Source: Zygnema cylindricum (Eukaryota > Streptophyta > Zygnematophyceae > Zygnematales > Zygnemataceae). From it: a DNA stretch of 42,747 nt. This document shows positions 3,954 to 42,747 of the stretch, piece after piece. Location of the stretch: assembly GCA_037447655.1 (NCBI GenBank), contig JBBHKE010001539.1, positions 356,340 through 399,086 of the forward strand, in the 5' to 3' direction. Numbering within the stretch: the stretch's first letter is position 1; every line of letters begins with the position of its first letter. Below the pieces are notes generated by a model. That model did not search any database and was not told where the DNA came from. It was given only the letters and a program-made list of their open reading frames with translations. The position numbers and the translations under genes were made by a program.

Positions 3954-4116
3954 ATATTAGCGTGCCAAATTAAAGTACTTTAATAAATTAGAGTAAACTT
4001 CATAGTTGAAACATCTCTATCACGTAAATTAGCGTTCATTACTCTAATTGTTTTTTTTAGTATTTGTACTCTAATTTTTTTATTACTCTAATTACGATTC
4101 GCGGTGTACTGTACAG

Positions 4117-4183
4117 TACACCGTCAATCGCTATAAGAGTAAAGTAATAAATAGCGTAAAAAAAAAATAGTGATACTAACACT
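4117..4183. mobile_element. Left end of another TA-MITE, truncated
   Basis: Begins TACACCGTCAATCGCTAT eight bases after the previous MITE's right TA, in head-to-head arrangement (the junction GGTGTACTGTACAGTACACC is a 20-bp palindrome). Its interior is cut off by the hAT-like copy at 4184. Confidence 0.75.
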
Positions 4184-4375
4184 AGAGGTCGCAAACGGTC
4201 AACCGAAACCGTGACCGACCGTTAACCGACCGCCTACGCCGAATCCGGAACAAATTCGGTTGCCAAATTTTGAGGGCCGGGCGGTTGCGGTCGGTTGATT
4301 CACCAGAAAAAAATAACGGTCTTTTACGGTAAGCCAACCAAAAAACCAAGAAAAATGAACATTTTGTACTGTTCA
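4184..4375. mobile_element. Truncated, inverted copy of the 2109-2732 hAT-like MITE
   Basis: Starts AGAGGTCGCAAACGG and runs for about 190 bases as the reverse complement of the right arm of the element at 2109-2732, then stops where the TATATCGA element begins. The other end is missing here. Confidence 0.8.
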
Positions 4376-4377
4376 TT

Positions 4378-4765
4378 AGTGTAGGGTATCGGGTAAATTC
4401 ATATCACGATAATTTTGATATTCGATATATCGAATATCGATCGAGCAGATTCCTTAATATATCGTACCGGGACCAACATAAATTATCGCGATATATATCG
4501 CAAAAAATGGGTGTCCGTACAGTCCTAGTACATAAAATCGTACGGATACCCCCCTTGAGCGCGAGCCGAGGGGGGGGGGTGTTTGAAAAAAAAAATCGGA
4601 AAAAAAATGAAAATTTTCATTTTGTTTTTTAATGCCTTGATATATCGGCGATACGATATATCGCGATAATTTGGTTTTCGATATATCGAAGCGAAATATC
4701 GATTATCGAGTACCTCAAATTCGATACATATCGAATATCGGCAAAAGGTCCTCGATACCCAACAC
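4378..4765. mobile_element. TATATCGA foldback MITE, full-length copy
   Basis: Perfectly matching outer inverted ends AGTGT(T/A)GGGTATC and GATACCCAACACT bound 388 bases made largely of TATCG/CGATA motifs, giving a near-complete hairpin with a G-rich loop (G run near 4570). Partial copies lie at 6125-6250 and in the glycosyltransferase gene at 30257-30423. No obvious target duplication and no coding capacity, so the superfamily is unassigned. Confidence 0.8.
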
Positions 4766-4768
4766 TAA

Positions 4769-5090
4769 ACCGCGAATAGTAATTAGAGTAATAAAAAAAA
4801 TAGTGTACAAAATCTAAAAAAAACAATTTGAGTAAAGAACGCTAATTTGTGTGATGGTGTTGTTTCAACTATGAAGTTTACTTTAATTAATTTAAGTACT
4901 ATAATTTGGCATACTAATATCCTCTACTGTAAATAAGGTATTCGTACATAATTTGGCAAAACGTATAGTTTATCGTCACTATGACGTTAGCACTACGCGG
5001 TTTGTTAAAACGCAGTTACATGATAACGGCCTGTATTAAATCATTATTTGTACCTTTTTACTTTATACATATACATATTTGTATTTTTTT
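4769..5090. mobile_element. Inverted partial copy of the 2914-4108 MITE (pre-insertion form)
   Basis: Starts with a damaged terminus (ACCGCGAATAGTAATTAG) directly abutting the TATATCGA element and matches the complement of 3956-4105 and then 3075-3269, without the 683-bp insert. The short peptide frame shared by both copies (4981-5175 here, 3017-3202 on the minus strand there) is a consequence of this homology. Confidence 0.75.
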
Positions 5091-8002: not shown

Positions 8003-9097
8003 TGAAATTATATAAGCTCCATTGCCCACAGAATTCGCAGATCCAAAATAAGCTAATCTAGATAGTGCCGACTCCAAGTTGATATAAACCCAAATGAATG
8101 ATCCCTTGATAATCAAAACCCCAATACACCTTCACCCCAGTGAAGAGAAGACCTTATGTGTGCTCAGTTCCACCACAGAATGCAAAGCTTGAATATATGT
8201 TTGGACAATATTCCCCACTTTGACTTTCTCACTGAATAAGTGCCACCCTGGCACGCAAAGACCTTCACTGACTACACCAATGTGTAGCTTAGACACCTCT
8301 GAGTCCGCAGAAAAAATAATCACTGAATTTTCTCACCCGAGCATTAAGTTATGGCTGGTCAAAAATGACCTTTTTAGTTACAAGCTCTTTTAGAGAGAGG
8401 TACCTAAATATCACTAAGTCTTGGTCTGCCTACTCACGACTACCTACTACTAAACCCTAGTCCAATAGGAACACTATATAGTAGAAGAAGGTATGATAGG
8501 CGATGTACTTATTGTACGGCCATTGTAAGACATGGTCTACAAGGTGACATTTGCCAAATCGGGAGCCATGGTTCCTCCTCCCATCTTCTCCGATATCAAA
8601 TGATGTGGCGCCACGTGGTACCGCGTGAGGCTATCCCCAAAGGCCGCCGAAATCTTATTGTTGGTGGTGGCTGTAATGGTGGCGGTCCGATCAGTTGTAT
8701 TTATATGGCTTCGATTCGCTTCCATGCATGAATTGATTAATGCGCGTTTTCGTTAGTCTGCTGCGAATTAGTCCTTTAGATTAATACACATATATGCGTG
8801 AAACATATCAGTGTATCGTTTCGTTAGTGCCTTAATGGATAACGCGTATGTCTTCATAGTAATCTGCTGACCCTGGTTCAAATCCGATCAGATGCACTAT
8901 TTTACTAAAACTAGTAAAATACCTTGTAATTCATTCTGCCTTTTTCTAAATGGCGCAGCAGCCATGGCCTGCCTTTGGTCCTCTCTTTCTCTCTCTTTAC
9001 ATTCTAACTAAAATATAGAAGTGAACTATTAATTACCTTTTTCCAACACTCTATTTATTTTTCCAATACAAACCTAGAAAATACATAAATTTAAATA
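8003..9097 (-). repeat. 3' LTR of the copia-like element
   Basis: Nearly the full partner of 11057-12151. In element orientation the first bases are TATTTAAATTT, where the other LTR has TGTTGAAATTT, so the canonical TG has decayed. It ends in TTTCA. It contains a tRNA-like box A/box B segment at 8821-8903. Confidence 0.93.
8821..8903 (+). promoter_or_regulatory. tRNA-like pol III promoter (box A, box B, T4) inside the LTR
   Basis: A box-A-like TAGTGCCTTAATGG (8825-8838) is followed 50 bases later by GGTTCAAATCC (8875-8885), an exact fit to the box B consensus GGTTCRANNCC. A TTTT run about 15 bases on could terminate pol III. Overall similarity is to the D-arm through T-arm of tRNA-Arg, but the acceptor stem does not pair, so it is not a functional tRNA. 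It is oriented opposite to the retroelement. The same segment is in the other LTR. Confidence 0.6.
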
Positions 9098-9110
9098 CTC
9101 CCCTTATTTT
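9098..9110 (-). promoter_or_regulatory. Polypurine tract
   Basis: In element orientation AAAATAAGGGGAG lies directly against the first base of the 3' LTR, the expected position and composition for the plus-strand DNA primer of a retroelement. Confidence 0.8.
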
Positions 9111-9136
9111 CTAGTCTACTTTCTTTTCAACTCCCA

Positions 9137-10114
9137 CTAAACACATTTTTTTTTTCTTTTCTTTTTCTTCTTTCTTTTCTCTTCATAAAACTTTAAGTGA
9201 ATACAATCGTATTTAAACAAGTGCATTAGATGAACCGAAATAATAATTACATCACACATTTTATTTTGCATGCAATTTTTCAAAAATCCGAGAAAATACT
9301 TTATCCACCTCATTTCTTTTCCATCCACACTAAATCCAATTTCCCTCTTGCAATTCAAACAGCCAGCCCCATCTCCAATCTGCAACACACACCCAGATGC
9401 TAACCCTCTTACAAGCACACCTTCATAAATGCCATCACTCCCATTAGTGATGTCAAACCCATTACCCCCTAAATTTTCCCAAAAAACAAGTGTCCCCACT
9501 AAGTTCCTCATAAGATCTACGTCTTCCGTACTCATATTTTTATCCATGATACTTACCCCATTTTCTGAACTTTCCTCACTCTCTCCCATGGAATTCTTTC
9601 CGCAATCACTTTCTATTTTTATTCCTAATAAATATTTCTCCTCCCCTAAACCTTTCATTAAATATTCCTCTTCTCCCCTATCTTTTAAAACCCCCTCTAG
9701 ATTTACTTCTCCCCTTTCATCGGAATCCTTTAAAGTCTCCCTTTCCGACCAGTTTTTTGTTTCCAAAATATCTATAAAATTATCCTCATTATTTTTATTT
9801 TTCCCTTTTTCAATTATAAATTCTAGATGTGACTTTTTATACTCGTTGACATCCATTTCATGTCTAACTCCTTTAAGTACCTCCCTTCCTTTTACTTCCC
9901 TTATACCTCCAAAATCACACTGTTGCTTTCGTGGAATTTCTGTGTACTTTTCTCTCTTCTCCATTCTACCGATGTGGAGAAGCTCTAAGATTTCTTTATC
10001 GTCTTTTTTGCTCTTCCCTTTCATCCTCCTCATCCACATTCCAACTTCTAAGTTCTTCCAAACAAGGGCACTCCTCCATATAATGACCTGGTTCCCTACA
10101 AAAGAAGCAAACAC
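9137..10114 (-). pseudogene. Charged C-terminal frame of the retroelement (325 codons)
   Basis: Open frame downstream of, and overlapping by about 120 bases, the zinc-knuckle frame but in a different register. Rich in Glu, Lys, Asp and Gly, with no protease, integrase or RT motif. Its first ~40 codons read the zinc-knuckle DNA out of frame, so translation would have to enter by frameshift after the knuckle, or an indel separates the two. It occupies the place where pol should be, so it is either a Gag extension or captured host sequence. Function unknown. Confidence 0.45.
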
Positions 10115-11052
10115 CCTTTTTCAAAGCTCCATTTTCTTTTCCTCTCCCTCTCTTTCCACCAAAGTTCTGATAAGGTTTACCTTGGTCTTTCTTCTTCTCA
10201 CCACTCTTCCGCTCTTTACCGGCGTTCCTCTCATCACGCTTGCGCAAATCACCACCAGCTGTAAATGCAATCACTCTGTCACTTCCCCTACGAAGCTCCA
10301 AAGTGCTTTCCCTCACAAGAATTATCCCCATGGTAAAGCTTTAAGTCCATGAGGAGCCACCCATTGCCTTCATACCATAAATGATGTTTTCGTACTCATC
10401 TGGGAGTTTCATGAGTAGTGTATTAATCTTTCTCTCCTCGGATTCTACATATCCCGCACTAACAAGCTCAACATATAAGGCAGCAATATCATTACAAAAC
10501 TCTATCATGTTACCGCCTTTAAAAACATAGGCCTTTATTTCGTGTTTTACTAACTGCTGCCTCTGAATAGTCTCACTCTTATAAATCTGACTTAGTGTTT
10601 CCCAAATTTCCGAAGACTTGGTTAGACTTAAAAGAGTGATAGCTATGGACTTAGAAACATATCTAAGTATGAGATGTTTTGCTATAGTGTTTTTATACTC
10701 CCTAGTTTTTCTATCATTTTCTTCAGTTTTACTTATAACCCCTCTAATTGGAGCTGTGGCGGAAAGCATAGCTCCCTTCACCATAAGTGTCCCTTTATCT
10801 TTCTACCGTTTTTTTCCCTTTCATGGCAATGATTTTCCTTTCACCTTGCGTTACATCTGAACTCCAGTTAGTTTTATGGGAAGCCCCAGATGATTCTCCA
10901 TAATGAGTTCCACCAAAGCCGGGTGGCGGGCACCTCACTTGCCTTGAAACAATTCCCCACAAATGCTTTTCGAAAAGCAATCCCTCCATCGTCAACTCCC
11001 AATAAGTGAAGTCTGTTCCATCGCACATAGGCACCTTAGATGGTGGGCCCAT
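9996..11052 (-). pseudogene. gag: Copia-type Gag, broken by frameshift and stop
   Basis: Three pieces of one Gag in order. 11052-10795: N-terminal domain with the copia-typical DGTDFTYW...LW.IV pattern. 10784-10341: UBN2-type Gag domain (LLSLTKSSEIWETL, then a LLMKLPDEY segment near the end). 10331-9996: CX2CX4HX4C zinc knuckle, CFFCREPGHYMEEC, at 10109-10068. A register change near 10790 separates pieces 1 and 2, and an in-frame TAA at about 10340 separates 2 and 3. Gag would package the RNA into virus-like particles. The first ATG lies inside the primer-binding site. Confidence 0.88.
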
Positions 11053-11056
11053 AACC
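11045..11056 (-). promoter_or_regulatory. Primer-binding site, half-tRNA initiator-Met type
   Basis: Directly after the 5' LTR end (TTTCA) the element reads GGTTATGGGCCC. This matches the primer-binding site known for Drosophila copia, which pairs with the anticodon-arm region of a cleaved initiator methionine tRNA rather than the tRNA 3' end. Family knowledge is recalled, not searched. Confidence 0.75.
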
Positions 11057-12151
11057 TGAAATTTTATAGGCTCCATTGCCCACAGATTTCGGAGATCCAA
11101 AATAAGCTAATCTAGATAGTGCCGACTCCAAGTTGATATAAACCCAAATGAATGATGCCTTAACAATCAAAACCCCAATACACCTTCACCCCAGTGAAGA
11201 GAAGACCTTCTGTGTGCTCAGTTCCACCACAGAATGCAAAGCTTAAATATATGTTTGGACAATATTCCCCACTTTGACTTTCCCACTATATAAGTGCCAC
11301 CCTGGCACGCAAAGACTCTGAATGACTACACCCCTGTGTAGCTTAGACACCCCTGAGTCAGCAGCAAAAAGAATCACTGAATTTGCTCACCTAAGCATTA
11401 AGTTATGGCTGGTCCAAGATGATCTTTTTAGTTACAAGCTCTTTTAGAGAGAGGTACCTAAATATCACTAAGTCTTGGTTTGCCTACTCACGACTACCTA
11501 CTACTAAACCCTAGTCCAATAGGAACACTATATAGTACAAGAAGGTACGATGGGCGATGTACTTATTTTACGGCCATTGTAAGACATGGTCTACAAGGTG
11601 ACATTTGCCAAATCGGGAGCCATGGTTCCTCCTCCCATCTTCTCCGATATCAAATAATATGGCCCAACGTGGCACCGCGTGAGGCTATCCCCAAAGGCCG
11701 CCGAAATATTATTGTGGGTGGCGGCTGTAATGGTGGCCGTCTAATCAGTTGTATTTATACGGCTTCAATTCGCTTCTATGCATGAATTGATTAATGCGCG
11801 TTTTTGTTAGTCTGTTGCGAATTAGTCCTTTAGATTAATAAATATATATGCGTGAAACATATCATTATATCGTTTCGTTAGTGCCATAATGGATAAGGCG
11901 TATGTCTTCATAGTTGTCTGCAGACCTTGGTTCAAATCCGGTCAGATGCACTATTTTACTAAAACTAGTAAAATACCTTCTAATTCATTCTGCCTTTTTC
12001 TAAATGACGTAGCAACCATGGCCTGCCTTTGGTCCTCTCTTTCTCTCTCTTTACATTCTAACTAAAATATAGAATTGAACTATTAATTACCTTTTTCCAA
12101 CACTCTATTTATTTTTCCAATACAGACCTAGAAAATACATAAATTTCAACA
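11057..12151 (-). repeat. 5' LTR of the copia-like element
   Basis: Begins TGTTGAAATTT and ends TTTCA in element orientation, keeping TG...CA. Contains the second copy of the tRNA-like promoter at 11878-11955 (box B GGTTCAAATCC at 11929-11939). Better preserved at its outer end than the 3' LTR. Confidence 0.93.
11878..11955 (+). promoter_or_regulatory. tRNA-like pol III promoter in the 5' LTR
   Basis: Counterpart of 8821-8903: box-A-like TAGTGCCATAATGG at 11879-11892, AAGGCG, then box B GGTTCAAATCC, followed by a TTTT run. This copy keeps the D-stem pairing (TGCC/GGCG) better than the left one. Confidence 0.6.
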
Positions 12152-26930: not shown

Positions 26931-29900
26931 ATGGCTCGTACGGACAGTTCTGGCTTGTGGAGCTTTCTCGGCCCTACTATTCGTGTCTTTCTCATTTCCC
27001 TCCTTCTCCTCCCTCTCCTCCATTTACTCCGCTCTCCCTCCTCCTCTCAAATGATTTCTGGTCAACGAGTCGCCTATGCGACAGTTGTCTGCGGAGAACA
27101 AAACGCCAAAGCCGCCATGGTTTTAGTACATTCAATCCGAAGTACAAAAACGCCATTCGATATTGTGGTATTAACAAAAAATTTGTCGGCTCCTACGAAG
27201 CATATTTTGGCAGCATTAGGAGCCTTAATCGATCCTCCTCCCGGTCCCATCCTCGATAATTCTCGTCCGGTGTCTTATGGCTCAATGAATTCGTCTTATT
27301 CGGAGGAAAGTTGTTTAATGGCAAAAATGAGGCTTTGGGGATTGACTCAATACGATATTTTAGTTTATGTGGATCATTTGATGGTGGTTTTGGAAAATAT
27401 CGACGATTTATTTCAACGGCGACAGTTGTCGGCTGCACCGGATAACGATTTACCGGATCGATTTAACCCTAATTTAATGGTATTGGAACCAAATCAAATC
27501 ACTTTGAGACGAATGGTTTTTACCTATGAGAATAGTCCAGAACATGTGAGGGTTAAAGAAGCGGAAGACCTACTTTTTTTCAATTATTTTTTCGAGGATT
27601 GGCCGTTACAACCCCCGGAAAATCACTTAGATTATGGGTTTAATGCTCCGGCAAAACTTGGATATTCTGCCACGTGGAATGAATGGGTCCACACTAAGTT
27701 GAAGGCTGTCCACTTTGAAGGCCCTTTTGAGCGATGGAATGAAATCTGGGACAAACATTATCCTCCCACTCGACGTTACGACCATATTCGATGGGAAATT
27801 TTGAGGGATATGTATACCTTCTTAGTTCAACAAGGAGTAGTTTTGCCTTCAGATGCTATAGTAAACCCATATTGTCAGACGGACTATATGCAATTTGCAA
27901 GAGGATCGCCCATTCAGAGAAGAGCTAGTATTCTTTTACGGTTTCGAGGAAATTTGAATTCCTTACGAGGACTTATACAGTCTTTAACTTCCCTCCGTTT
28001 CGTGCATCGTATCTATGTTCTCCCGACAAGTTCGAATGCCCAAATCGAATCACTAGGATTAGTGTGGAATGGGTCCAAACCGGTGACTGTTTTAAATGGA
28101 TCCGATTATTCCCCTAGTGCTCTTTTACGCCCCATTCCCTCTTTAGACACCGATTGTCTCATTTTAAGCGATGATACTGTGAAAGTCAATCCTTTGGTTT
28201 TGCAAACAGCTTTTAAATTATGGATGCAGCATCCCCATAGAATTGTGGGACTGTTTCCTATGGCTCATTATAGGAGGGCTTTGACCGGAGAACTTGTTTT
28301 CGTGGGACAACCTCGAACTCAATATTCGATGGTGGGGACTAAGTTGCTTATTATGCATCCGGATTATTTGCAATCATACACTTGTACTTTGCCACAGGTG
28401 AGTCGCTTTTGATTTCAAGTTCTGGTGTGGTTCTGTAGTTTTAATTGGGTACAAGTTCTGGGTTTTAGGTTTGGGTTTTGGGAAATCGATGATGTTTTTA
28501 AATAGACCCCTTCAATATGATCCTTCATTCTTATCTCACATGATAAAACTCACAAAAACCTTCAAAATGGACAAATGTTAAAACTTTGAAGCACCCCTAA
28601 AATCTTGGGAAATCATTATAGACTGGGAAACTCCAAAAGATCTCTGTACCTTCAAATTCCATGAGAGGTTGTTTGAAATCCAGGAGAAAAGGAAAAGTAA
28701 AAGAAAACAAAGGAGGTCCCGCCTTTATTCTTCCTAAAGGATTTGGGAAATTTGTGTAAAATTCAAGTAGACGTTCTCTGAAACCCACGAGAAACAAGAA
28801 AAGGAAATTGAAAAAGGAGTTTTTGTTTCAGTCTATTTGGTTTGCAAATTGTGTATAGTGTCAACTGCAGGCATCAATGGTCCTTTGAAACTTGGAAAAA
28901 AGTGAAAAAGAAAAAAAAACAAAAGGAGGGAGTAACTTTCAAAGAGTATGTTTCGAGTTTGGGAAATTTTGTATTTATTATTATTTTTTATTTTATTTCT
29001 TGCAGGCAGTGAAGGAGTATGTGGATCGAATGCCGAGTTGTGCAGATATTGCTTTAAATATGCTCGCAACTCAATTGACAAATACTCCTCCTTTGTTAAT
29101 TATCGACGGAGAGAAACGGATAATGGAAGAAGATGGAAACGCAGCTGCCGAAGCGGAAAGAACTCGTCTCCTTTCCTCTTGTCTTAATGATTTAGAAGCT
29201 ATGTTAGGAAACATGGCTTTGCAAAACACAACGGAAGCAAAAATGTACATGGAACACGACGAATTTACAAAAGAAGTGTTTCATGATCCTAATGCTCAGG
29301 CGCTCGCCCAAACTCCCGATCAAACAGTTTTGGATTTCCAGCCTATTTTCGAACCTCCAGGGAAAATTGCGAGTACAGACGAGAATTATCGTTTCATGTC
29401 TCAGATTCAGAGAATTATTTCCATGCCGGAAGTTATTGTTATGCCTTCTCCGTTAAAACCGAAACAGGTTCTGTGTGTGCAGGGAAATAGTTCTAATGCT
29501 GCTTGTCATTCGGGTGCAAATTGTACAAATCAATTTGCTTTAACTACTTTCAGAAGCGTTCCTTCGAGTGCTCTCCTTCTTTTAGGTACAACTCTTGTCC
29601 TTCATTCTCGTTATGGATTTGATGACCGGTTTCACACACCTAATATTCTTGCAAACTTGTTTTATCCATATCCCGACTACGGTTTTATGAAACCAGCGCG
29701 AGCTTTATTCTATCGACGAGGAAGTCTCGAAATGAAAGTTTCACAATGGAGCCGGTTATTATTTAAGTCTCTTTTAGGAGACCATATAGCCCCTTTTCGA
29801 CTCCGAAATGGAGACCGCCCAGTGTGTTTTGAAAGAGCGGTTATGACGAGAAGATATCGACCGATGGCGTCAGAGAGAAATATTGTTTTGAGAGAAGCTC

Positions 29901-30761
29901 AGGAAAGAGCTTGGGCTTATTGTGGGGTGCAAGCTGGTCTCTCGGAAGTTCCTGTTTCCGCTAGTACTTCGAAATCTGCAATAAAAATAGCAGAAAAAGC
30001 GGCTTCTTTGGCAGCTTCCTGGGCTTTTACGGTACGTCCGAAAAGTGCAACGCGGATCTTGTTGTTACATGGAGATGTCGATACTGGATATGGTGTTATT
30101 GAAAACTTAAATGAGCTTGTAAGTGGTTTACGATTAAATTGCCAAAAGGAGAATGCCTGCGAGCTACTTGTTCTTGGAGAACGGAATTTTACGAACTTTT
30201 GCCAACAGGTAAGCGTTCCTCCTGCCTTAAATAACTATATGAATGACAAGAATACTAGTGTTGGGTATCAAGGACCATTTGCCGATATTCGATATATATA
30301 TATATATCGAATTTCAGGTACCCGATAATCGATATAACGCTTCGATATATCGAAAATCAAAATATCGCGATTTATCTCCGATATATCGCCGATATATCGT
30401 ATCGTCGATATATCGAAGCATTTAACATATGGGATCGGCGGATCTGTTTATTAGTGTGGCTGGAGATGGAACCATGAACCATATCATGTTTATGCTTCAG
30501 GGAAAACGAGTATTAGAATTAGTACCTTTTGGACTCAAACAGTACGATCCTCGAGTTTTAAAGGTGTATCAAGAAGCTTCTAGATGGGTAGGTTTAGAAC
30601 ACCATCAACTTTTTGAAAAAACGGGGCCTACTTGTCCCGCTCAAGATTCGAGTTGCCGTTTCTTTTATCGGAAACGGGCGATGCGTATAGACGTGGACAA
30701 AGTTTTGCAGTGGTGGAATTCCGTGAGATCTGCTCCCGCGGACGGAACAGCTGTAGCATAG
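26931..30761 (+). CDS. Three-domain glycosyltransferase, GT8-GT64-GT61 fusion
   Basis: Exon 1 is 26931-28397 (489 codons) and exon 2 is 29006-30208 (401 codons), both phase 0 with GT/AG ends; the last coding segment is about 30429-30761. A type II signal anchor (residues 12-33) predicts a Golgi lumenal enzyme. Residues 45-275 look GT8/glycogenin-like (LMAKMRLW, VYVDHLMVVLENIDDLF, HFEGPFERW). Residues 330-515 are GT64/exostosin-like (LSDD at 412-415, HRIVGLFP, YSMVGTKL, then SCADIALNML across intron 1). Residues 680 onward are GT61-like (CFERAVM at 763-769, RILLLHGD at 839-846, then ADLFISVAGDGTMNH in the last segment). Such domains usually build xylan, GIPC or other wall and protein glycans. 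The GT8 DxD is degenerate (DHL). The last splice junction is unresolved because of a MITE, so the allele may be defective in GT61. Confidence 0.82.
28398..29005 (+). other. Intron 1 of the GT fusion gene
   Basis: Donor CAG|GTGAGT, acceptor TTCTTGCAG|GCAG. It interrupts the GT64 domain between PQ and AVKEYVD; frames on both sides fit phase 0. A second AG four bases on (GCAG) could shift the frame if used. No repeats recognised inside. Confidence 0.85.
30209..30428 (+). other. Last intron of the GT gene, acceptor unresolved
   Basis: Donor CAG|GTAAGC is strong and phase 0. No AG before the final coding segment gives phase 0 in its frame: AG at 30417-30418 enters the wrong frame, and a TAA lies two codons before the ATG at 30429. 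The MITE at 30257-30423 fills most of this interval, so the original acceptor and perhaps about 20-30 codons of GT61 sequence may be lost. Confidence 0.6.
30257..30423. mobile_element. Half-copy of the TATATCGA MITE inside the GT gene
   Basis: Begins with the outer terminus AGTGTTGGGTATC and follows the complement of 4765-4640 and beyond to CGAAGCATT, where similarity stops directly against TAACATATGGGATCGG of the last coding segment. The other half and terminus are absent. Confidence 0.85.
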
Positions 30762-38200: not shown

Positions 38201-41200
38201 GTACCGAATCTGCGATAGATCGTCTACCTACAAAATAGTCAAAATTGTCAAAATAGTCAAAATAGCCAGAATAGTCAAAATAGTCAAAAGTGTGATGAGC
38301 AAAGACTTCTTCACATTAGCCAGTTAAGCTTCAAACATTAATTAACCCTTAAAAACCCTTAAAAACCCTCAAAACACCCGACAACCTCATGAAACCCTGA
38401 AATATTTTCAAGGAAGAGTTGCTAGACATGAATCTCGGTTTTTTTTCCCCCGAATGCTAAAAAAAACAAGTTACAAAGTGACTATTGTTCTTAACTAACT
38501 AAATGTTTTTCTGAAATTAGTTGGTTCCCTAACTGTATAATTCCTCAGAAAACTTAAAAAAATAATAATAAAAAAAAACATTGTTTTCAAGAGTCCCCAG
38601 AAAAACCTAAAAAAAAAAACCCTTCTGTTTCAAAAATCCCTTGAAAAACAGTAAAAAAGAAAAAAAATCTTTTCAAAAATGCCTCAAAAAGCCTGAAGAA
38701 AATTCAAAAACATTAATTGCATTTCCGTGCAATATCTCTTTCCATTTCGTATTCATCACTGTAATTGGTGTGGATAAACTAACCTTATTGGTGGAAAATT
38801 ATTATAGAAGGGAAAATCGTAGAGGTAGACTTCATCCTTTTTTTTCCGTTGTAATTACTTCAGGGTTTTAGATTTTACTTGTAAAGCCCTCCTCCCATTG
38901 CGCCCTCTTTCTTTTTTTTCTTGGCTGAAAATTTTTCTACACCAATTGTTTTTTTTTTTTTTTTTAATTCTCTTTACTTCCTTTAGTGACCGGCTCCTTT
39001 TCTTTTATGTTTTTCCCCTGCCTGACGAATTATTTTTTTGCCCCTTTTTTTATTTTGTTTTTTTTCTTTTATTTGGTTATTTTAGGGAAGGTTCTTGGGT
39101 CAATTATGCCCTAAATTGGGCTTTGGCTCCTGTTGTTTTTTTTTTTTTGGTTGCCTGTTTTTTTTTCCCTTGCGATTGTTTTTTGCCAGTTTTTTTTTTT
39201 TTTCTTTAAGGAAGGTCCATGGGTAAATTAAATGGGGCTCTAGCTCGAACCAAATTGACCGCACTTTTATTTTTGGCTTTTTTTTTCCTGACCGATTGTT
39301 TTTTGCCTTTTTTGTGTGTGTGTGTGTGTGTGTTTTTTTTTTTTTAGGGAAGGTCCCGGGGTAAATTATGCCCTAAATTGGGCTCTGGCTCGGACCGGAG
39401 TGACCCCCTCCGGAGAAGCCCTCAGGAACCTTAAACAGGAGGAATTGAAAAAAAAAGGGGCCTCTTCTCCAGGTATTTTATTCTATTTTTTTTTTTTACC
39501 CTTTTTTTGAAGGGATTTTTTTATGGGATAGTTTCAGTGTTTTTTTGTGGTTTTTTTTATGGTTTTTTTTAGGATTTTTTTTAGGGTTTTTCAGAGTTTT
39601 TTCAAAGGGTGTTTGAATTGTTTTTAAAAGATTTGTTTTTTCAAAGGGATTTATAGGGCTTTTTCTTTAATGGTTTTGAGGGTTTTTTATTTTTTTTTAG
39701 GTGTTTTTAGAATTTTTATGGGTTTTACCCCATACAGGAAAGCAAGTGACTTCCGTTTTGAGTTTCTTAAATGCTTTTTCTCAGTTTAATTTCTCAGAGA
39801 GTTTCGGGATTTTATTGGCCTTTTTGGTTTTTTAGGTTTTTTTTGGAGTGAAGGATTTTTCAAGCTCAACAAAAGCTTGTATATATAAATATGTATATAT
39901 TTGTGTGTATATATATATATGTGTTTGTAGCTGTGTATCGTTTTTTTTTGTGTGAACAACTATCATGTAGAAAAATGAAGAGAGAATTTCACTTTTTATT
40001 TGCTTATTTATGATTATCTTTGTTATTATTTTATTTGCAGAATCGAAAACGGGGATAGACGTGTTTGTAAAAGGGACTGGACCTCTTACAAAAGCAAAAT
40101 TTAGTCGTCTTTTCAAAGAGGTTTGGTCAAATACTTTTAAAATCTTTGAAAATTTGCAATTTTTTTCAAAAGTCGTCCATATTCTTTCAAATTCTTACAA
40201 TACTTTCAAATTCTTAAAAAAATCTTGAAAATATTTGCAGTTTCTTTTAAATTCTTGCCAATTCTTTCAAAGTCTTACAAATTCTTACAATCGTTTCTTT
40301 TGTTCAACCTCTTTCAAATTCTTTCAGTTATTTTCAAATACTTACATATACTTTCAAATTCTTTTGAATTCTTACAAACTTTTTCAAATTCCTACCAAAA
40401 AACTCCTCGGACTCCTCTTCCTCTTCCCCACTTCCTCTCCTCCTGTTTTCTCCTGAAACTCCTCAGATTCCTCTTTCAATTCCTTTTTTCTTTTTACAAA
40501 TTCTTTTAAGATTTTACAAATTTTACAATATCTTAATCTTATCAGTCTTATCAGTCTTATCTAAAATCAAATTTTGGACGTTGGTGCATTTTCATGAAGG
40601 AAAACGTTGTTTTGTTTTTTTTTTGAATTTTTTTTTTTTTTTTTTTTTTTTTCATCCTTTTTTTTTTTTTGTTAAAAAAAAAAAAAACTAAAGTCTCCAA
40701 AGGAAGCCCTAAACATAACCCTTTCATTCTCATCTTTAATATAAACCCGAAAAAATTACTTTCTCAAACTACAGAGAATCTGGAAAAGAAACTTGAAATA
40801 AACTCTAAAAAAAAACATTTTTAAGAACAAGCCTTAAATCATTTTTTAGTTCTTTTTAGGAAGAAAAATATGCTCACCTTTGAATTCTTTTACCATTTAA
40901 AATACATATGTATATTTACTATATATCTATTATATGTTATTGCATGTTATATCATATTATTATATGTTATATATGTTATATATGTTGTATTATACATATA
41001 TATTTATGTGTATATATATATATTTATATATATGTAATTTAATCTATGTATATATCTATGTATCTGTATGTAAACATGTATACGTTCAGGTATATGTATA
41101 TATTCTTTTAGATATATATGCAGGTTTTTATCAGAACTTTAGAAACTCTCAAAAAGCAATCCTAAAGATAACCCTAAATAAAAACAGAAAATCTCACAAA

Positions 41201-42747
41201 AACCTTGAAAACATCCACAAAGAAAAACGTAAAAAACACTAAAAAACCCTAACAATATTTATGTTTTTGTCTTTTCTGGAAAAAAACAGGTTACCACCCA
41301 ACTTACGAAACCGCCTGCAGGCTCCAAAAACACCCTAGCGAAGCCTAAGAACCAAAAAAATACCCTCAAAATATTCGAAAAAAAAAGAAAAGAGCCCTCG
41401 TAAAACTCTTAACCATATTTATGTTTTTGTTTTTTGTCTTTTTAAAAAAAAAACAGGTTACCACCCAACTTTCAAATTCTTCGACAGTTTATGTTCACGA
41501 TGGGGCGGTCGGATCCGCTTCAAAAATTGACGCTCGAACTCGAGTCATTGCCGATACTCCCGGAGGAGCTCTCTCTCTCTCCTCTCTCCTCTCTCCCACT
41601 CCCACTCGAGCCGTTTCAGCAGATTCCTTTCCCCTTAATGTTTACGTCGTTTCCTCTTTCAGGTGCGTTATTTGGCTTTCTTCATTCTCTCTCTCTCTCT
41701 CTCTCTCTCCCTCCCTCTCTCTCTCTCTCCCTCCGCCTCTCTCTTTTTCTCTGTCTCTCTGTCTCTGTCCCTCTCCTCTCTCCCACTCCCACTCCGACAA
41801 GAAATTATTTTTCGCGGATTCCTCTCCAGTCCATGTCTATGTCGTTTCTTCTTTTAGGTTGTTTTGTTTTTTTGGGCCTTGTTTTGGGTTTTCTAAAAGA
41901 ACTCTGGATGAGGTTCTTTAAGAGTTTTTTTGGAATCTCTGAGTATTTTTTTTATTTTTTTTTCAAGGTTTTGTTATGGTTTTCTCACTGAGGGAGGGAG
42001 GGAGGGAAAGAGAGGGGAGGGAGGGAGGGAAGGAGGGAGGCAGGGAGTTAGACAGACATTTCTCTCTCTGCATTGTTTTATCTTTAATGATCTTTTTCAA
42101 TTTCTGAAGTTATTAATTGGTTTTTCTGGGCTTTGAAAGGTTTTTTTACTCTTCTTTGTTTTTTTTTTTTTTTTTTTTTGCAGCTTCCCTCTTTTGGAAA
42201 AGTCAAATTCTGTGTCCTTTGATCCGATTTCTTTTTCTTTTCTTTTCTAATTTAACTTTATTTTTCTCCTTTCTGATTTTTTTTTCTCTCCTTTTTTTTC
42301 TCCCCTTCTTACTTTTTTTTCGACTTTTTTCACAGCTCCTCCATATTGAAAAAGTCAAATTTTGCTGCCTTCGATTCAGATTCTTTTTTTTATCCTTTCT
42401 AATTTTTCTTCTCTACCTCATCTTTTTTTCTTCTCTTTTTCTTCTTTTTTCTTTCAGCTCCTCCGTATTGTAAAAGCCAAATTTTGCGGCCTTCGATCCA
42501 GATTTTATTTTTTTTCCTCTCTTATATTTTCTTTCCCTTTCTATTTGTATTTTTTTTTTTTTCCCCTTGCAGCTCCTCCGTTTTGGAAAAGTCAAACTTT
42601 GTGACAATCGATCCGGATTTTTTTTTTCTTCCTCTCTAATCTTTTTTTTCCCTTTCTCTCTCTTTCTTCTCTTTTGTTTTTTTTTTTTTTCTTTCAGCTC
42701 CTCTGTTTTGGAAAAGCCGAATTTTGTGGCCTTCGATCCGGATTCTT
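35223..42747 (+). CDS. Mitochondrially targeted plant-type protein, PEPCK-like family (partial)
   Basis: Exons with consistent phases: 35223-35294, 35677-35741, 39348-39472, 40041-40120, 41457-41662, then an exon starting at one of five acceptors from 42184; the gene runs off the window. The start, MQRTRQLASLGVRLSS, is Arg/Ser-rich without acids, a classical mitochondrial presequence. Later segments read VNYALNWALA, ESKTGIDVFVKG, VYVHDGAVGS, RTRVIADTPGGA and TRAVSADSFPLNVYV. These resemble, from memory, an uncharacterised plant family often labelled ATP-PEP-carboxykinase-like; none of the PEPCK catalytic motifs is present here, so that label should not be taken as activity. Gene structure is firmer than the name. 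Exon edges are repeatedly duplicated in its introns. Confidence 0.55.
36307..36519. mobile_element. Decayed TA-MITE in intron 2
   Basis: CACCATCCATCGCTATTG at the left and CTAACATCGATTCATGTTG at the right, with TA at 36305-36306 and 36520-36521. An older, more diverged family member. Confidence 0.65.
36855..36965. repeat. GGGA/GAGG purine microsatellite
   Basis: About 110 bases of GGGAGGGA and GAGGGA motifs on the sense strand of intron 2; G-run spacing could allow G-quadruplexes in the transcript. Confidence 0.85.
38228..38290. repeat. 9-bp tandem repeat (AAATAGTCA)
   Basis: About seven imperfect copies of AAATAGTCA in intron 2. Confidence 0.85.
39086..39347 (+). repeat. Two decoy copies of acceptor + exon-3 start
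   Basis: Copy a (from 39086, after TTTTAG) preserves G-GAAGGT...AATTATGCCCTAAATTGGGCT and reads VNYALNWALA in frame before dissolving into T-rich DNA. Copy b (from 39211, after CTTTAAG) has a deletion and an in-frame TAA. The real exon starts at 39348. Spacing is 125 and 137 bases, and the intervening T-rich DNA also repeats (GATTGTTTTTTGCC). A (TG)n run at 39313-39332 lies just before the real acceptor. Confidence 0.9.
40130..40540. repeat. Degenerate TTCAAATTCTTACAAA repeat in intron 4
   Basis: Many imperfect copies of TTTCAAATTCTTACAA directly after exon 4, giving spurious Phe/Leu/Ser-rich frames. Confidence 0.75.
40890..41125. repeat. TA/TATG-rich microsatellite
   Basis: Dense TATATATG, ATATGTTAT and GTATATAT runs within intron 4; no coding. 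Confidence 0.8.
41240..41320 (+). repeat. Decoy copy of acceptor + exon-5 start
   Basis: TTTATGTTTTTGTCTTT...AACAG then GTTACCACCCAACTTACGAAAC (from 41290) duplicates the real acceptor and exon start at 41457 (GTTACCACCCAACTTTC). The copy diverges after about 20 bases. Distance is 167 bases. Confidence 0.88.
41690..41785. repeat. CT microsatellite after exon 5
   Basis: CTCTCTC/CCCTC runs downstream of the exon-5 donor. A shorter CT run lies inside exon 5 itself (about 41570-41605), where it codes for the LSLSSLLSPTPT segment. Confidence 0.9.
41770..41857 (+). repeat. Duplicate of the exon-5 3' end with donor
   Basis: CTCTCCTCTCTCCCACTCCC through ATGTCTATGTCGTTTCTTC and TTTTAG|GTT copies the last ~75 bases of exon 5 (to 41662, TTTCAG|GTG) including the AG|GT border. 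Both borders would work as donor and, with their pyrimidine tracts, as acceptor. Confidence 0.85.
41985..42055. repeat. GGGA purine run
   Basis: Short GGGAGGGAGG tract in the intron before exon 6. Confidence 0.85.
42184..42747 (+). repeat. Five tandem copies of acceptor + exon-6 start
   Basis: Polypyrimidine tract, CAG, then C-TCCTCCGTTTTGGAAAAG...TTCGATCCGGAT starts at 42184, 42336, 42458, 42573 and 42698 (spacing 152, 122, 115, 125). All but copy 3 (TAA in codon 5) keep an in-frame reading like SSVLEKPNFVAFDPDS, phase-compatible with exon 5. Copies 1-4 decay into T-rich DNA after about 50 bases; copy 5 is cut by the window end and may be the true exon. Confidence 0.92.

Follow-up and report, generated by a model that had tools for sequence, protein, structure and literature searches.

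One gene at the end of a 42,747-nt stretch of the Zygnema cylindricum genome (hereafter the window) carries several of its exon edges more than once, the additional copies lying in the adjoining introns. With a probability of roughly 0.7, we read these copies as fossils of successive local tandem duplications that crossed intron-exon borders and lengthened the introns. The explanation that we favour is thus ordinary duplication, which happens to be unusually clearly visible in this gene. The window corresponds to C1151:356340-399086 in the assembly that we searched (352.8 Mb in 2689 contigs) and lies between two N runs of ~3.9 kb each (-3938..0 and 42748..46645).

Exons of the gene were rebuilt from open frames and splice dinucleotides, and their phases fit to give a single continuous reading of 153 residues. 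The model covers exons 3-6 and leaves exons 1 and 2 unplaced. The translation of exons 3-6 matches ATP-type PEPCK (PF01293) with an E-value of 5.9e-4 and 19.1 bits, which falls under the curated Pfam cut-off of 26.5. The same translation weakly resembles (E 0.0096) NDUEG2, which is listed as a PEPCK-like subunit in an account of Euglena complex I (PMC10884005). Because the resemblance to PEPCK and NDUEG2 is weak, the 'mitochondrial' label that the gene had been given may serve as a lead only. The introns of the gene are 45% T, as compared to 30-37% for noncoding sequence of six carrier loci.

Several other features of the window deserve a brief description. A Copia-type element at 8003-12149 is delimited by direct long repeats (8003-9095 and 11057-12149, 94% alike) and contains, between the repeats, a minus-strand reading frame with Retrotran_gag_2 and a zinc knuckle. 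A glycosyltransferase gene at 26931-30758 encodes an intron-split GT64 domain, preceded by a sub-threshold GT8 match (E 0.089) and with an end that we take, from a motif, to be GT61-like. A palindrome, CGATATATCG, at 30336-30422 lies within a stretch similar to 4639-4767. Within the window, no RNA family matched above its gathering score and no tRNAs were found, and another gene of the window had no match when scanned against viral contigs.

A combination of self-BLAST, nhmmer and alignment recovered all four edge families reported in an earlier note on this DNA, with the copy numbers given there. Counting the true edge, the start of exon 3 is present three times, the start of exon 5 twice, the end of exon 5 twice and the start of exon 6 five times (Table 1). 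Self-BLAST E-values for the edge families range from 1e-8 to 6e-69, with partners on the intron side only. The copies follow one another in direct order, 115-195 nt apart: successive exon-3 starts are spaced by 124 and 138 nt, the exon-5 starts by 167 nt, the exon-5 donors by 195 nt and the exon-6 starts by 152, 122, 115 and 125 nt. T-rich tracts space the exon-3 and exon-6 units, and a CT run precedes both copies of the exon-5 donor. The note had described the repeated unit as a tract, an AG and 20-50 exon bases; such modules exist, with the amendments that their exon part spans ~15-60 nt and that one exon-3 copy has AA in place of AG. The units lie next to one another in direct orientation and take in intron as well as exon sequence, the form expected of tandem duplications. 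Of the 3887 intron bases under consideration, 1324 fall in edge modules, tracts and spacers; this figure depends on hand-set limits and includes the tracts and spacers of the true edges.

Table 1. Exons of the gene and copies of their edges (positions in the window; a slash marks the exon-intron junction)
Feature	Position	Strand	Description
Possible remnant, fourth and oldest exon-3 edge copy	38985..38997	+	13 nt like exon-3 interior, recognised by eye and missed by nhmmer; uncertain
Exon-3 acceptor module, copy U1	39021..39129	+	AG at 39084-39085, exon copy from 39086; 39/44 aligned exon bases identical
Exon-3 acceptor module, copy U2	39195..39262	+	AG changed to AA, 7-nt deletion, exon copy from 39210
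Exon 3, true copy	39348-39472	+	Open frame, joins exon 4 in phase
Exon 4	40041-40120	+	No copies of either edge found
Exon-5 acceptor module copy	41243..41304	+	Exon copy from 41290, CAG/GT kept
Exon 5	41457-41662	+	Encodes most of the PEPCK_ATP-like stretch
Exon-5 end and donor copy	41757..41859	+	AG/GT at 41857/41858, 195 nt downstream, frame open throughout
Exon-6 edge copy c1	42184..42232	+	Alignment, nhmmer
Exon-6 edge copy c2	42336..42384	+	Alignment, nhmmer
Exon-6 edge copy c3	42458..42506	+	In-frame TAA; alignment, nhmmer
Exon-6 edge copy c4	42573..42621	+	Alignment, nhmmer
Exon-6 edge copy c5	42698..42747	+	Last before the N run at 42748-46645; true exon or another copy

Shuffle tests set these matches against chance. 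In a test of exon bases (300 dinucleotide shuffles, adjoining intron, segments placed 0-3 nt off the junctions), the best intron score was never reached in shuffled sequence for the start of exon 3 (67, shuffle mean 16.8), the end of exon 5 (43, mean 21.4) or the start of exon 6 (62, mean 18.5). The first 50 exon bases of exon 5 alone gave a score of 30, reached in 1 of 300 shuffles, at a different site (40311); with a segment that was half intron and half exon, the true copy scored 60 and was matched by 0 of 200 shuffles. Intron 4 also contains, at 40127-40400, a ~10-nt periodic repeat (CTTTCAAATT...) similar to part of exon 5 (CTTTCAAATTCTT). No copy of the end of exon 3 or of the start or end of exon 4 was found in the shuffle tests. 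An edge was counted as copied if it scored at least 32 and 0 of 200 shuffles reached its own score, and by this rule a nearby copy accompanies four of the seven edges in the window and one of five edges behind the N gap.

The exon-6 array runs up to this gap of ~3.9 kb. Because the window stops at the N run right at the fifth exon-6 start, c5 may not be the last of the array and may have successors. Three exons, with a stop codon at the end, can be read by eye behind the gap and, judged by position and strand, probably belong to the same gene. A fifth copied edge, probably of this gene, is found there: the exon end AAACCGGGAGAGCAAGAAG/GTAAG at 47653 recurs with its donor 104 nt on, at 47757. 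The acceptor of the last exon is borderline (score 29, 4/200 shuffles).

The arrangement would arise as follows. A local tandem duplication that crosses an intron-exon border would leave one copy joined to the intact exon, and this copy would keep a working splice site, since the orphan would lack both the remainder of the exon and, at exon distance, a second splice site to pair with. Now intronic, the orphan would presumably be ignored by exon recognition and would drift. Repeated rounds would make introns longer, with series of decaying acceptors and donors inside them. Duplications within exons would be purged by selection, so that survivors would be seen at edges; coding sequence would keep old edge copies recognisable, and purely intronic copies in T-rich sequence would be hard to spot. 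Given the CT runs before the exon-5 donors and the T-rich spacing of the units, slippage or unequal exchange in T-/CT-rich tracts may have been the route, with template switching a further candidate. We infer that the copies are unused in splicing.

Copied edges are not a peculiarity of one gene, as had been supposed, though this gene is an outlier. Among the sampled pieces of the genome, intronic copies of exon edges also turned up in a dehydrogenase-like gene (L013), a glucosyltransferase-like gene (L017), a carrier gene (L035) and one of eight random pieces (L024). In L013 (C2614, minus strand), an exon that we take from its motifs to be short-chain-dehydrogenase-like has two upstream acceptor copies by self-BLAST, one of them without AG (nhmmer recovered one of the two). 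The donor edge of the next exon is copied four times downstream (E 1e-7 to 3e-4), and one of these copies has lost its donor. An exon end in L017, presumably sterol-glucosyltransferase-like by its motifs, has one copy at E 1.5e-10 and a remnant without GT identified by eye. These two loci are a biased sample because they come from nine (L013-L021) chosen for matching T-rich linkers. The carrier gene repeats a donor edge four times with a period of 54. L024 belongs to eight randomly drawn 8-kb pieces (L022-L029, the first 8 of 60 contigs from a random list), and in it an exon-like end, recognised by eye, recurs together with GTAAAA 174 nt on. Finally, by eye, apparent coding ends including the stop codon are repeated in the 3' flank in L032 (rc 4510-4822) and L010 (3015-3231), and a splice site therefore appears not to be needed for copying.

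Local duplications are common among the sampled pieces of the genome. Tandem families, many of them satellite-like, occur in 16 of the 20 pieces numbered L010-L029 and, among carrier loci, in 4 of 12 (thresholds differed slightly); none was found in L012, L014, L022 and L026 or in the other 8 of the 12 carrier loci. Taken with the share of intron bases that the modules occupy, these counts support a local mutational process and intron growth, both of which had been suggested for the gene. Repeats of other kinds were also encountered: L039 contains near-identical carrier exons 2.4 kb apart (rc 1595-1771 and 4010-4186), a whole-exon duplication, and in L029 (2601-2947), LRR-type exons (LSGSIPSSIGQL-like) of plant-like appearance are repeated. 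Such LRR repeats were excluded from the count of edge copies.

For a background rate, we used carrier genes taken from the PF00153 match list before their sequence was seen. A nearby copy was found for 1 of the 45 junctions tested, 30 of which came from L030-L035, with edges whose junction could not be fixed by eye excluded. The other 15 came from six carrier genes (L036-L041) that had no tandem family within 700 nt and gave 0/15 edge matches (17 edges were listed, two anchors were not found and L040 contributed none). Near misses were an acceptor in L032 (score 33, 1/200 shuffles), a donor in L039 (35, 1/200) and an acceptor in L041 that no shuffle reached (0/200) but that scored 21. The GT64-domain gene of the window had 0/3 edges copied. 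Arbitrary 50-nt segments had a nearby copy in 61/734 cases in the noncoding part of L030-L035, 111/1236 in L022-L029 (coding included) and 39/764 at positions 1-38300 of the window; these rates are slightly lax, with 100 shuffles as against 200 for edges, include segments inside repeat arrays, and are very uneven between loci, some having none. In a stricter set of complex segments, with a score of 36 or more, copies were found for 9/402 on the left and 7/402 on the right (~2%, 2.2%), and for 0/364 with flanks from elsewhere.

Relative to these rates the gene stands out, and its p-values are optimistic because it was selected for standing out. Copies accompany 5 of its 12 edges as compared to 1/45 carrier edges (Fisher p 0.001; p 0.0006 for the 4/7 in the window alone), and the probability of five or more of twelve is 0.002 at a background of 8.3% and 4e-6 at the 2.2% of complex segments. 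Its own introns outside the edge copies yield a copy for 11/90 segments (p 0.02 against 5/12). Since its edges exceed both the background and its own introns, the gene is an outlier at whose edges something beyond the average rate acts.

We consider it unlikely that this excess reflects a specific tendency of splice junctions, or of genes with T-rich introns, to be duplication hot spots, for example by way of transcription- or splicing-coupled breaks. Such a tendency would agree with the contrast between this gene and the carrier genes, with the T content of its introns and with the edge arrays in two of the nine loci fetched by T-rich linker matches. Carrier edges, however, are not above background (1/45 vs 61/734, p 0.25), gene ends that lack splice sites are copied too, and the gene was chosen as a stand-out. 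Of the positions with a tract plus AG, 7/130 are duplicated, three of the seven from L013, as compared to 43/1348 for a tract with other dinucleotides (p 0.20). Exon borders are not generally hot spots, and acceptors as duplication hot spots find no significant support. Slippage or template switching at T- or CT-rich tracts, close to what had been suggested earlier, is a candidate that fits the sequence, with no significant enrichment at tract plus AG. Duplication of the ordinary kind fits these comparisons; the gene would be either a hot spot of local extent or an extreme among the duplications common in the sampled pieces.

A second alternative, to which we also give little credence, concerns the end of exon 5 alone. 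The true end of the exon could be at either donor, as the 195-nt copy lies in frame and is open, and the pair might be an internal coding duplication (exon 5 extending to 41857 and thereby including a Ser-rich insert of 65 residues) or a 195-nt optional intron. A length divisible by three, a frame open through both copies and AG/GT at both junctions speak for this alternative. The PEPCK-like matches end before the donor pair, so homology cannot choose between the donors. Against it, the insert is largely CT-repeat sequence of low complexity, and the first donor, GTGCGT, matches the donor consensus better.

The decay of the copies bears on whether they are maintained. Most exon parts have diverged from the true edge by 11-26%; the copy of the exon-5 start is identical over 15 nt. 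Among the five exon-6 copies, 21/49 sites vary, distributed over codon positions 1, 2 and 3 as 8/5/8 (p 0.68, with few sites and low power). Because the smallest difference is that between c2 and c3 (6/49 sites, as compared to 7-15 for the remaining nine pairs), some copies probably derive from copies rather than from the exon. Disabling changes include the in-frame stop of c3 and the frameshift and lost AG of U2. The edge copies of this gene decay like noncoding DNA.

Extra acceptors and donors might be retained as decoy or competing sites that restrain or tune splicing. Signals at the copies would be compatible with such a role. AG is kept in 6/7 decoy acceptors of the window, and a strong pyrimidine tract (84% or more) is found in six of the seven, the exon-5 start copy having 56%, as its true site does. 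Every exon-6 unit contains a YTNAY motif, a loose branch-site match that is common by chance, and both exon-5 pairs have AG/GT. This retention is, however, what neutrality predicts: the probability of six or more AGs is 0.22 at 20% divergence, and the splice dinucleotide is kept in 16/23 copies from six genes (tallied by eye), where the neutral expectation is 0.61-0.72 at ~18% divergence. Signals are thus no better conserved than neutral sequence, one acceptor is lost in the window and others elsewhere, and changes show no codon-position bias. Selected competing acceptors, a possibility raised in the earlier note, are accordingly quite improbable. Similarly improbable is a broader proposal by which junction-linked duplication, for example during co-transcriptional splicing of T-rich introns, would keep adding whole splice-site modules to certain genes, such that introns would grow from their ends and arrays of competing sites would tune splicing.

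Remains of a tandem paralogous gene or exon array, or an assembly expansion, are highly improbable sources of the copies: the exon-6 array does terminate at the N gap, but a protein search of the genome, which scored the best candidates, found exons 3, 4 and 5 at this locus only, which contradicts a paralogous array, exons 3-4-5-6 follow one another in order and exon 4 is single, only exon edges are repeated, and the divergence of most copies makes an assembly echo unlikely. A transposon or introner origin was considered and rejected, as no dispersed copies were found in searches that scored the best candidates only. Among the ten matches listed outside the locus, only query positions 64-137 or 300-391, which are T-rich linkers, were involved.

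Tandem duplication across an intron-exon border is already known from single cases; the form seen here is serial. The best documented case is the potato RdRp gene, as presented in a 2016 report (PMC4974935). In that report, the duplication is direct, like those described here, and spans the 3' end of an intron and the 5' start of an exon with a putative branch site, pyrimidine tract and AG; the same gene also has an 83-bp tandem duplication inside an intron. There, one duplication gave rise to a new spliced intron, as RNA-seq showed. The Zygnema copies differ in being serial, in affecting several borders of one gene as well as other genes, in being partly decayed and in apparently yielding longer introns.

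Parallels with other systems are partial. The exon-5 pairs duplicate AG/GT, as in the AGGT-duplication model (Rogers 1989) and in internal gene duplication (Gao and Lynch 2009), whereas the exon-3 and exon-6 starts have no AG/GT at the junction and what can be seen is a lengthened intron. Decoy exons, and recursive splicing as the subject of PMC8605326, share the intronic acceptor- and donor-like sites and AG/GT junctions; the copies described here differ in showing no conservation above neutral. Introner elements, the subject of PMC9860276, likewise reflect a process that adds intronic sequence, whereas the present copies are local, with no dispersed family among the best-scoring candidates and no near-identical copies across many genes. 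A search of the open PubMed Central literature with few terms met no case of serial build-up at several borders of a gene that recurs in further genes of the same genome, and the claim of serial accumulation to novelty is weak.

Accounts of how introns lengthen and how cryptic splice sites originate usually invoke transposons or single events. A genome in which introns hold datable copies of exon borders would offer a direct record of the process, in which the rate, unit length, direction and decay of duplications can be counted. The fidelity of splicing against neighbouring decoys would, in such a genome, become testable.
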